Shown in pieces: positions 37,409 to 40,361 of a stretch of 64,000 nucleotides of DNA. The notes beneath the pieces were generated by a model. The model saw only the letters and a list, made by a program, of their open reading frames with translations. It was not told where the DNA came from and searched no databases. The translations under genes were made by a program, and so were the position numbers. Source of the DNA: Sphingobacteriales bacterium. GTDB lineage: Bacteria > Bacteroidota > Bacteroidia > Chitinophagales > CAIOSU01. Position 1 is the stretch's first letter. Each line of letters begins with the position of its first letter. The DNA is taken from contig JAIXUD010000010.1 in the NCBI GenBank assembly GCA_027483645.1, forward strand, positions 250,001 to 314,000. The letters run 5' to 3'.

Positions 37409-37526
37409 CGCTTTTCTTTTTAATGTAGCAATGTGCAGGTGGGATAATGTGGTGATGGAGTTGCGGGTTACGGTTTGCGAGTTTGGAGTTGCGGTCGTTT
37501 TGTTGCCTCGGCAACAATGCAGGTCA

Positions 37527-38163
37527 CCCTGAGCCTGTCGAAGGGCGCGAGCTATTGCCGTGCACTGCGAAGTTTTTCACGTAGCAGTGCAGGGGACGGG
37601 TGCTAAACTCCCTTCTCGAAGATGTTCCATGCGACCAAAGAATTAACACATTACTCCTCGGTCCCCTTCTTAATCCGCCGACTATCATTTTTGGATTTCG
37701 CCAGTTCCGGCAAAACATCCCATTCCCCAGCAATTACAGCTTCCTTCTTTTTCCTGTTCCAGCCTTTTACTTGTTTCTCCCAAGCAATAGCTTGCTCAGG
37801 GTCGTTGAATATCTCCCGATATACCAATTCCACCGGCCTTCTAAAAAAGGTATACGCTTTTGGGTCGAGGCCATTGATGTGCTCTTGCAACCTACGTTCA
37901 AGGTTATTGGTGATGCCAGTGTAATAAGAGTTGTCAGCACACCTTAATATATAAACGTAGAAGAGGTTCACAAGTTGAAAATAGGGAATTTTTGTTGTGC
38001 GGGTTTGTGGGTCGCAGGGCGAGTTTTATGGGCTGCATTTTTGGTGGGCAGTACTTCGCATGGGAAGTTAGCGGGCTGCAAAGGCACCACCCGCCCGCAG
38101 CTCGCCTACGTGAAAAACTTCGGCTCGCTTAGCATTCGCTCGCGCCCTTCGACAGGCTCAGGG
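37527..38163. repeat. Inverted REP-like sequences flanking the GIY-YIG gene
   Basis: ccctgagcctgtcgaagggcgcgagc (37527-37552) is the exact reverse complement of 38138-38163; an inner 15-bp pair gaagtttttcacgta / tacgtgaaaaacttc is also perfect. Confidence 0.95.
37651..37971 (-). CDS. GIY-YIG nuclease family protein
   Basis: MNLFYVYILRCADNSYYTGITNNLERRLQEH..AIAWEKQVKGWNRKKKEAVI. Confidence 0.96.
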   Translation of the reverse strand: MNLFYVYILRCADNSYYTGITNNLERRLQEHINGLDPKAYTFFRRPVELVYREIFNDPEQAIAWEKQVKGWNRKKKEAVIAGEWDVLPELAKSKNDSRRIKKGTEE

Positions 38164-38215
38164 AGACACGCGGGCTTAGGAGTTGCAAGCGGGCACAAAA
38201 AATGATTGCAGCAAG

Positions 38216-38257: not shown

Positions 38258-40081
38258 CTACACCACCTCCCCCACCTTCATCTGCCTAGTAATCAGCGAA
38301 GCACTTCCCTCGGTATAGATAAGTACGCCTTGTGCGCCGGGCGATAGGTCGGCGGCATTGCCCTCGTCGGTGTCGATGTGCATTTCGAGCTTGTATTTGG
38401 GCGATACCCTTATCAGCACGTTGCCGAAGGTAAGGCTGCGGTCGTTGTTGGCAATGCGGACTTCCACAATGTCCTTGTCTTGTACTTTCAGTTCTTCGGC
38501 GTCTTGCGGAGTCATGTGGATGTGTCGCCAAGCGCAGATAACGCCTTGGGTAAGGCGAGCTTCGCCGTATGGGCCGATTAGGGTACAGCCGGGTGTGTTG
38601 TCTATCTTGCCCGATTCGCGCACGGGAGCATCAATGCCGAGGAAGAATTCATCGGTACGGCTTATCTCTACTTGGTCTTCGGGGCGGGTAGGCCCGAGGA
38701 TGCGTACCCGCTCAATGCGGTTTTTGGGGCCAACCACGGTCACGGTTTCGTTACAAGAGAACTGGCCGGGCTGGGAGAGGGGCCCGCGCTCGGTGAGCTG
38801 ATAACCTGGGCCAAACAGCAGCTCTACCGTCTGCTGCTTTAAGTGCACGTGGCGGGCCGATACGGCAATGGGGATACTGGTAATACGGTTCACTTGGTCT
38901 TGTGAGGAGGCTACCTGTGCAGTTTGCCTAGCTATGGACAACTGCTCATCGGTTTTTATTGCGAAAAGCTTTACACGGCTATGTGGCATGGCAAACTCGG
39001 CCACGGGTTTATTGGTGGAGAGCTTCAGGTCGCGGTTTAGGTCTTCGTCGATTACGGCACCCAGATAATCCAACCGTTGGCTGGCGCGGTGGCGTATTAC
39101 GGAACTGTTCTCGCCAATACCGCCCGTGAAGACAATCGCATCTACGCCGCCCATTATGGCGGTATAGGCACCAATATATTTGCGCAACCGGTGGCTAAAT
39201 ACGTGCAACGCCAAGCGGGCATCCTCATCGTTGCCCGAAGCTTTTTCGATAATATCGCGCATATCGTTGCCCACGCCTGAGAGGCCTTTTAGGCCACTTT
39301 CGTTATTCAGCAACTTATCCAATCCTTCACCATCTAGGTTTTCCTGTTTCGCCAACAACACCAACACGCCTGGATCAATATCGCCAACGCGACTGCCCAT
39401 TACCATGCCTTCCAATGGGGTCATACCCATGGAGGTTTCAACACTTCTGCCAAACTCCACCGCCGCTACCGAGCAACCGTTGCCCAAGTGGCAGGTAATG
39501 ATGCGCAGGCTGCGGATGTCGGTTTTTAAGTATTCGGCGGCCTTGTGCGCCACATACTCGTGGCTGGTGCCATGGAAACCGTAACGGCGGATGCCATGCT
39601 TTTCGGCTAGTGCCTTGGGCAGCGCATAAGCCTGCGCCCGCTTCGGCAAAGTATGGTGGAAGGCAGTATCAAACACGGCCACGTGCGGCACTTCGGCCAG
39701 CACGGCACGCGCAATGCGGATGCCTTCTATATTCACAGGGTTGTGCAGTGGGGCAAGGTGGTTGAGGCTTTCGCAGGTGGCTAATACCTCATCGGTAACG
39801 AGTGTGGCTTGGGTAAAGTGCTCGCCGCCATGCACCACGCGGTGGCCTACGGCATCAATGCCAAGGTTGCCGTTGCTGGCCAACAGCCGCTCCAACAAAA
39901 AACCGATGGCCGCCTTGTGCCCGCTCGGGCAGCTATCCACCGCTTCGCCATTAATGGTGAGCACTGGGCTTACGCCGGCAATACGCTCTGTAGTGGCGGT
40001 GGCAACGTGCTCGCCCGTAACGGAGTTAATGATATCGGCCTTTACGGATGAGCTACCGGAATTGAGGACAAGGATGTACAT
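38258..40081 (-). CDS. Acetate kinase - phosphate propanoyltransferase (PduL-like) fusion protein
   Basis: N-terminal MYILVLNSGSSSVKAD..GHRVVHGGE..YGFHGTSHEYV..CHLGNGCSVAAV acetate kinase; C-terminal IPIAVSARHVHLKQQTVELLFGPGYQLTERGPLSQPGQFSC..CAWRHIHMTPQDAEEL PduL. ATG at 40081 chosen over the track start. Confidence 0.93.
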   Translation of the reverse strand: MYILVLNSGSSSVKADIINSVTGEHVATATTERIAGVSPVLTINGEAVDSCPSGHKAAIGFLLERLLASNGNLGIDAVGHRVVHGGEHFTQATLVTDEVLATCESLNHLAPLHNPVNIEGIRIARAVLAEVPHVAVFDTAFHHTLPKRAQAYALPKALAEKHGIRRYGFHGTSHEYVAHKAAEYLKTDIRSLRIITCHLGNGCSVAAVEFGRSVETSMGMTPLEGMVMGSRVGDIDPGVLVLLAKQENLDGEGLDKLLNNESGLKGLSGVGNDMRDIIEKASGNDEDARLALHVFSHRLRKYIGAYTAIMGGVDAIVFTGGIGENSSVIRHRASQRLDYLGAVIDEDLNRDLKLSTNKPVAEFAMPHSRVKLFAIKTDEQLSIARQTAQVASSQDQVNRITSIPIAVSARHVHLKQQTVELLFGPGYQLTERGPLSQPGQFSCNETVTVVGPKNRIERVRILGPTRPEDQVEISRTDEFFLGIDAPVRESGKIDNTPGCTLIGPYGEARLTQGVICAWRHIHMTPQDAEELKVQDKDIVEVRIANNDRSLTFGNVLIRVSPKYKLEMHIDTDEGNAADLSPGAQGVLIYTEGSASLITRQMKVGEVV

Positions 40082-40143
40082 GGTGCCGCTTGATTGTGGA
40101 GGGCTAAAATAACAACAAATGCTGTTATTGCCATTAAAACGGG

Positions 40144-40361
40144 CGTCATTGCGAAGGCATAATTGATGTGGCGGTGTGAGATGCCTTGCAATGGCCTGAA
40201 GCAATCCGCTGCAGAGGGGAATGAAGATTACCTACCGCTAAATTAGATCATAGTATTACCGGCTCCTTGGTTTAGCAACATCATTCTTTGTAGCAGGGGA
40301 TTGCTTCAAGCCAATGCAGTTTATCACATATTGCGAGACCATGTAGGCTTTCGCAATGACG
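40144..40361. repeat. Intergenic inverted-repeat element (cgtcattgcgaa...gaagcaatc)
   Basis: cgtcattgcgaaggc (40144-40158) .. gaagcaatccgctgc and reverse-complement counterparts ggattgcttc .. gctttcgcaatgacg (40347-40361). Confidence 0.85.

Follow-up and report, generated by a model that had tools for sequence, protein, structure and literature searches.

REPs rank among the most frequent repeats in bacteria, and those tagged GTAG have a known enzyme, RAYT. Free-standing homing endonuclease genes of the GIY-YIG type are represented by the Seg family of phage T4. For RAYT (TnpAREP), two groups have been described, associated with interrupted and perfect palindromes (PMC8266576). CGTC-tagged REPs were defined in Proteobacteria, Chlorobi, Bacteroidetes, Spirochaetes and Thermotogae, with the dRS3 repeats of Neisseria included (Di Nocera et al. 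2013, PMC3733652). They were said to 'apparently lack a dedicated transposase', and their transposon was proposed to be extinct (PMC3733652). Transposase genes were examined in that study, a set to which GIY-YIG genes would not belong. A literature search found no paper linking GIY-YIG to REPs; preprints and most subscription journals were outside its coverage and a prior description is possible.

The window, i.e. the whole 64,000-nt stretch of DNA that was analysed, contains a GIY-YIG gene bracketed by inverted repeats (Table 1). The initial annotation had noted a perfect 26-bp inverted match (ccctgagcctgtcgaagggcgcgagc at 37527-37552, with its exact reverse complement at 38138-38163), a 15-bp inverted match (gaagtttttcacgta at 37569-37583 and 38107-38121), weaker similarity along the arms and the GIY-YIG gene as the only credible gene between them. 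All of these were reproduced. Both matches lie inside 80-bp arms separated by 485 nt, and the 26-bp repeat forms the core of these arms. The arms further exhibited features absent from the annotation, namely outward GTC tags, a stem interrupted by GA/GA and a second hairpin after each REP. Within the window, the 17-bp core (≤2 mismatches) was confined to the two arms, compared to 0.01 occurrences expected from dinucleotide shuffles.

Table 1. Coordinates of the cassette features within the window.
Feature	Position	Strand	Description
Left inverted arm, 80 bp	37523..37602	+	GTC tag outward; complementarity of 80% with 38088-38167; the genome has further, related copies
Right inverted arm, 80 bp	38088..38167	-	Tag outward; includes the 15-bp repeat 38107-38121
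Left REP hairpin	37523..37546	+	GTC tag; CCCT/AGGG stem broken by GA/GA (CCCTGAG-CCTGT-CGAAGGG)
Second hairpin, left arm	37562..37590	+	GCACTGC-GAAGTTTTTCACGTA-GCAGTGC, 7-bp perfect stem
Right REP hairpin	38145..38167	-	Outward tag TGTC (GTCT-CCCTGAGCCTGTCGAAGGG on the - strand)
GIY-YIG nuclease gene, clade I	37651..37971	-	106 aa, GTG start; Y7, Y17, G19, R27, H31 and E65 present

The protein matched PF01541 GIY-YIG in Pfam (E=3.9e-21, 75.6 bits against a cut-off of 22.6). This was the only match of the single ORF in the cassette, with no HUH or catalytic tyrosine transposase domain found. Searches of NCBIfam and PADLOC matched no family, and Rfam gave no match. Beside the cassette, at 38258-40204 (-), a single ORF was seen that, from its sequence, appears to be an acetate kinase fused to a PduL-like phosphotransacylase domain.

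The repeat had been suspected to be widespread, and this proved correct. Across the genome (4.27 Mb in 23 contigs), an 18-mer of the repeat occurred seven times (≤1 mismatch; six exact) while its reversed control gave 0, and the left arm produced ~20 matches, 15 of them with E<1e-3. When the copies were compared by eye, many had the structure TGTCACCCTGAG-loop-CGAAGGGTGC, after which came another hairpin around GAAGTTTTTCACGAA. In the REP hairpin the loop varied freely, even accommodating inserted hairpins, with TGAG and CGAA mostly kept, and the second-hairpin position was occupied by GCGAGCC..GGCGAGC or GCACTCC..GGAGTGC. Other GIY-YIG paralogues in this genome had tagged repeats of their own, different ones. 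At five of the loci analysed, another REP or hairpin was found inside the loop of a REP hairpin (in one of these, TGAGTCTCGTTTGAAACGAGATCGAA), as if the loop behaved as an insertion or template-switch point. A second clade I gene (G000:C10:171958-173570), 66% identical to the first, has an 80-bp-type repeat 1.1 kb away with a 214-aa ORF in between, and is possibly a cassette with cargo.

The genome also contains many dispersed inverted REP dimers of ~108-135 bp, whose REP subtype differs from that of the window. The ends of the ~130-bp dimers matched those of one GIY-YIG cassette (L047) over the hairpin plus ~20 bp, and on this likeness such gene-less dimers resemble non-autonomous derivatives of the cassettes. 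Many ~130-bp inverted dimers with GTCATGGTGAGC arms and a conserved inner TAATGTAGGTGGCA were recorded, on contigs C1, C2, C7, C8, C10, C11, C13-C15 and C17. As both clade I GIY-YIG genes detected in the genome have REPs of a different subtype, the enzyme matching these dimers may have been lost or may be unassembled.

To survey other bacteria, 54 relatives of the window protein were collected by protein search of a genome collection, with flanks of up to 10 kb. They came from Bacteroidota, Proteobacteria, Chloroflexi, Spirochaetes, Patescibacteria and others. The density of stem-GAG..CGA-stem hairpins was 57 per 10 kb up to 150 bp from the gene and ~1 per 10 kb at distances over 1 kb. Other GIY-YIG genes had hairpins of the same architecture as the left REP hairpin next to them, and the stems of these covaried. 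As these relatives had been chosen by similarity, two unbiased samples were drawn by Pfam PF01541 alone, comprising 118 Bacteroidota genomes and 142 genomes from the class of one alphaproteobacterial relative. The genes sampled were the best-scoring among the matches listed, and weak family members are under-represented.

A motif-free test was applied to the 250-bp flanks of 170 GIY-YIG genes (the Bacteroidota sample with its best-scoring listed matches, the own family and the 54 relatives) and 452 control genes. The two flanks shared an inverted repeat (score ≥14) for 38.8% of the GIY-YIG genes compared to 1.1% of controls, and a direct repeat (≥25) for 43.5% compared to 0.2%. Controls near the unbiased loci were few, and random regions were therefore used as background for the tagged hairpins. 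Within 200 bp of the gene, among the matches listed, GTCAY-tagged hairpins reached 1.88/kb in Bacteroidota and 1.77/kb in Alphaproteobacteria. In 400 kb of random sequence from the same genomes the density was 0.020/kb, and in its non-coding part 0.097/kb. The enrichment near small GIY-YIG genes was thus ~90x over random DNA and ~19-fold over non-coding DNA, the latter ratio being rough, with only two hairpins in the non-coding part. The initial annotation had made its proposal depend on repeat copies being enriched near GIY-YIG genes, and a strong enrichment was what was found.

The pairing was specific to part of the GIY-YIG family. Among the matches listed in the unbiased samples, 91 of 115 genes of clades I and II were flanked by REPs (52/59 in Bacteroidota and 39/56 in Alphaproteobacteria), against five of the 45 other small GIY-YIG genes (3/33 and 2/12, respectively). 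The latter figure corresponds to background, because the permissive flanking label also marks 10.5% of genes in random regions and 13.4% of neighbouring genes. Flanking exceeded background in both samples (Fisher 2.6e-14 in Bacteroidota and 0.001 in Alphaproteobacteria, among the matches listed). For the ~21% of listed clade I/II genes with no hairpin detected, this may reflect detection limits or degraded repeats.

A FastTree phylogeny of 242 proteins (101 columns) placed nearly all REP-flanked genes inside one group of 190 rows (support 96). Within it, clade II (84 rows, support 99) comprised 55 genes with perfect or shorter perfect stems, 11 with GA-type hairpins and 18 with none. Clade I, the rest of the group with the window gene included, had GA-interrupted hairpins only (85 GA, 21 none). 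The two hairpin types required 10 changes on the tree, compared to at least 38 in 200 shuffles, and the flanked and unflanked states required 33 compared to at least 56. The tree is coarse, many of its inner forks lacking resolution, and it supports the association of protein with hairpin and not the fine branching order. Every protein clade has a hairpin type that goes with it, and the tags are GTC, usually TGTC or CGTC. The perfect-stem CGTC hairpins of the other GIY-YIG clade led to the rejection of an initial view in which the TGAG..CGAA hairpin alone was relevant.

The stems were further assessed by covariation. Only the tag (GTC) and the core (GAG..CGA) were held fixed, and the three middle stem pairs were scored against randomly re-paired arms. 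All three were Watson-Crick in 39 of 77 distinct arms, compared to a shuffled mean of 3.3 and a maximum of 10. Because the middle pairs covary, these are real stems. The perfect-stem example CGTCATCCCCGCGAAGGCGGGGATCCA folded strongly as DNA (z -4.1), as did an RL dimer (-19 kcal/mol, z -5.6). Lone GA-type hairpins gave weak folds (z -1.8 to 0) with the standard energy model, which may undervalue tandem GA pairs.

The hairpins of clade II conform to the definition of a CGTC REP, having CGTCAT, a stem of 8-9 bp and CCA. At one locus, CGTCATCCCCGCG..CGGGGATCCA, which also fits the definition, flanks the gene on either side. Azospirillum lipoferum 4B has sufB and sufC as the neighbours of its GIY-YIG gene, which is flanked on both sides by a complete CGTC dimer. 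An outward CGTC pair was found at a GIY-YIG gene in Novosphingobium aromaticivorans pNL2, Rhizobium sp. CIAT894, Shinella and Aeromonas caviae, and the gene of Neisseria gonorrhoeae sits within a dRS3-type array. No clean outward CGTC pair was seen near the gene in Sinorhizobium meliloti pSymB, Photobacterium, Methylobacterium or S. parapaucimobilis. In the window, the right arm is tagged TGTC and the left arm GGTC, most copies in the genome having TGTC, and the tags of the CGTC superfamily are CGTC, TGTC and CCTC. The superfamily has an uninterrupted 8-9 bp stem starting with AT and a CCA tail, while the window repeat is GA/GA-interrupted and without CCA. Based on sequence, the window repeat is best described as a GA-interrupted relative and not strictly a CGTC REP, whereas the hairpins of its clade II relatives do classify as such.

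Two further arrangements were observed among small GIY-YIG genes. At six loci, the genes occurred in tandem arrays with repeat units between them, a pattern that unequal recombination at the flanking direct repeats could produce. A third class of 52 rows, outside clades I and II, adjoined tRNA genes. A tRNA gene was located within 400 bp in 35 of the 52, and flanking direct repeats were present in 27, many corresponding to the 3' end of the tRNA plus terminator. These look like single-gene cassettes in tRNA genes, at times in tandem.

The catalytic residues Y7, Y17, G19, R27, H31 and E65 were invariant among REP-flanked members. For an AlphaFold2 model of the window protein (pLDDT 83.7), the nearest matches were the UPF0213 structures 1zg2 and 1ywl. 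Slx1 came next, and the N-terminal domain of UvrC matched weakly. Slx1 is a structure-specific nuclease acting on branched DNA; because the modelled fold resembles it, a folded REP dimer is a plausible substrate of the GIY-YIG enzyme. GIY-YIG enzymes hydrolyse DNA and are generally understood to form no covalent protein-DNA intermediate for rejoining strands.

Two cassettes in one genome (L043 and L047) had the gene and hairpins in common and different surroundings. Presence and absence were followed at the murG-murC site in 40 genomes from the genus of Chryseobacterium takakiae, the gene names being judged from sequence. The arrangement L-GIY-R was found in two genomes, R-L-GIY-R in another two and R-L-GIY-R-L in one (G288). 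One genome (G309) had R-L alone and one had R alone, and most of the other genomes examined had no such hairpin. Positions 1-124 of G309 corresponded to 1-128 of G288, and 47-270 to 441-666, with 92-94% identity. Hence, a 78-bp RL dimer is single in G309 (flank-RL-flank) and is duplicated precisely around the gene in G288 (flank-RL-GIY-RL-flank). For this related cassette there is an intact cassette-free allele, as for homing genes. These two states fit gain and loss alike, and any direction of movement would be a matter of interpretation. A locus that was fixed and syntenic had been set as evidence against mobility, yet occupied, solo-REP and empty states were all present at this one orthologous site. 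Together with the enrichment and the hairpin type tracking protein phylogeny, such non-fixed loci support the annotation's single-gene mobile cassette. Pairwise dN/dS among four genes at murG-murC was 0.06-0.12 which, with the intact catalytic residues, points to purifying selection on the GIY-YIG genes.

For the window's own cassette, synteny of ackA yielded no clean counterpart of an empty site, rpsA and ackA not being adjacent in genomes G003 and G005. G005 was rejected as a clean empty site for L047; the flanks are adjacent there, but the indel (1.78 kb in G003/G005) is larger than the cassette. A REPIN on contig C9 of G005 was also present in G003, showing no polymorphism, and a further locus was occupied in both Chryseobacterium genomes compared.

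We consider it somewhat more probable than otherwise that the window locus belongs to widespread single-gene GIY-YIG elements whose REP dimers are both ends and targets, and that these move by a homing-like cut and repair. The nuclease would recognise a folded REP dimer, as a hairpin or cruciform, and cut it where no gene is present. If the break were then repaired with a gene-carrying dimer as template, the gene would be copied in and end up with a dimer to either side, and recombination between the flanking dimers could delete the gene again. Gene-less REP dimers would accordingly be targets, scars or non-autonomous derivatives. The presence/absence pattern is a better fit to homing than to RAYT-type transposition. 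The reading is weakened by the clade I/II genes with no hairpin detected, by the window's own site having no clean empty counterpart and by the size of the G003/G005 indel. Against homing, many cassettes, the window's included, are of the form L-GIY-R, with outward inverted REPs only and no flanking direct repeat, which is not directly predicted; and entry into existing dimers leaves the first arrival of REPs at new sites unexplained. Both would be better explained by a RAYT-like single-strand activity, in which the nuclease would process REP hairpins in single-stranded DNA (e.g. on the lagging strand), moving dimers and its own gene with no REP target needed. Dispersed copies do require some route to new sites, and the outward tags, the dimers with the cassette's ends and the parallel between the two hairpin classes and the two TnpAREP groups (PMC8266576) are in keeping with such an activity. 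It is nevertheless unlikely in view of the hydrolytic chemistry and of the gene lying between direct copies of an entire REP dimer (G288/G309 and Azospirillum), as dimer recombination would give.

Purifying selection and the likeness to Slx1, among the nearest annotated folds, would also suit a non-mobile nuclease that resolves REP cruciforms or trims REP structures for the host and is kept beside its substrate. This is improbable, as gene number varies per genome, presence differs among congeners, the insertion points are scattered (e.g. murG-murC and sufB-sufC) and an enzyme of such a role needs no linkage to its substrate. Least credible is that GIY-YIG genes and REPs are functionally unlinked and both gather in tolerant intergenic DNA. 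Both are indeed intergenic and dispersed, and REP arrays are interleaved with other repeat families (PMC3733652); however, the other small GIY-YIG genes among the matches listed stayed at background, hairpins were enriched even over the (roughly estimated) non-coding density, and hairpin class tracks protein clade with the same type on both flanks.

From these sequence comparisons, the GIY-YIG enzyme is likely to be the missing partner of the CGTC REP superfamily. The pairing gives a concrete candidate enzyme for CGTC REPs, answering a question left open by the earlier study (PMC3733652), and the cognate protein-hairpin pairs open REP movement to direct tests. A further suggestion from the pairing is that mobile elements, and not repair genes, lie behind many entries labelled only 'GIY-YIG nuclease family protein' or 'excinuclease ABC subunit C'. 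More tentatively, and at rather less than even confidence, GIY-YIG nucleases may mobilise an ancient REP superfamily, homing into and perhaps spreading hairpin dimers, with a sister class targeting tRNA genes likewise and structured DNA as the common target.

Among known systems, the element is nearest to the CGTC superfamily, RAYT REPtrons and REPINs, free-standing homing genes and MITEs or internally deleted IS derivatives. The flanking hairpins of clade II are textbook CGTC REPs, the difference being that no transposase was reported for the superfamily (PMC3733652) whereas here there is a GIY-YIG clade as partner. As in RAYT REPtrons and REPINs, the palindromes are short and tagged, they occur as dispersed copies and as dimers, a lone small nuclease gene lies between inverted REPs, and the REP classes co-diverge with the enzyme. 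The interrupted and perfect palindromes of the two TnpAREP groups (PMC8266576) strikingly parallel GIY-YIG clades I and II. The ~108-135 bp dimers of the window's genome, of the other REP subtype, are REPIN-like in having two inverted REPs, a short spacer and a dispersed distribution. In contrast, the enzyme is GIY-YIG and not HUH/tyrosine, the tag is GTC (CGTC/TGTC) and not GTAG, and the gene is often between directly repeated REP dimers. The RAYT analogy of the initial annotation therefore holds for the role and not for the enzyme: inverted tagged palindromes surround the gene, but the HUH/tyrosine domain and the GTAG tag are absent. As in free-standing GIY-YIG homing genes, there is a single GIY-YIG gene with presence/absence at a fixed site and an intact empty site; unlike them, the targets are dispersed repeat hairpins and not a unique gene, and the element carries the target at both ends. 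The gene-less dimers share termini with the gene-bearing element, as do MITEs and internally deleted IS derivatives, but there is no DDE transposase and no long TIR-transposase pair, and what is duplicated is the REP dimer. By analogy, the element resembles both a REPtron and a homing gene, and we would file it as neither.
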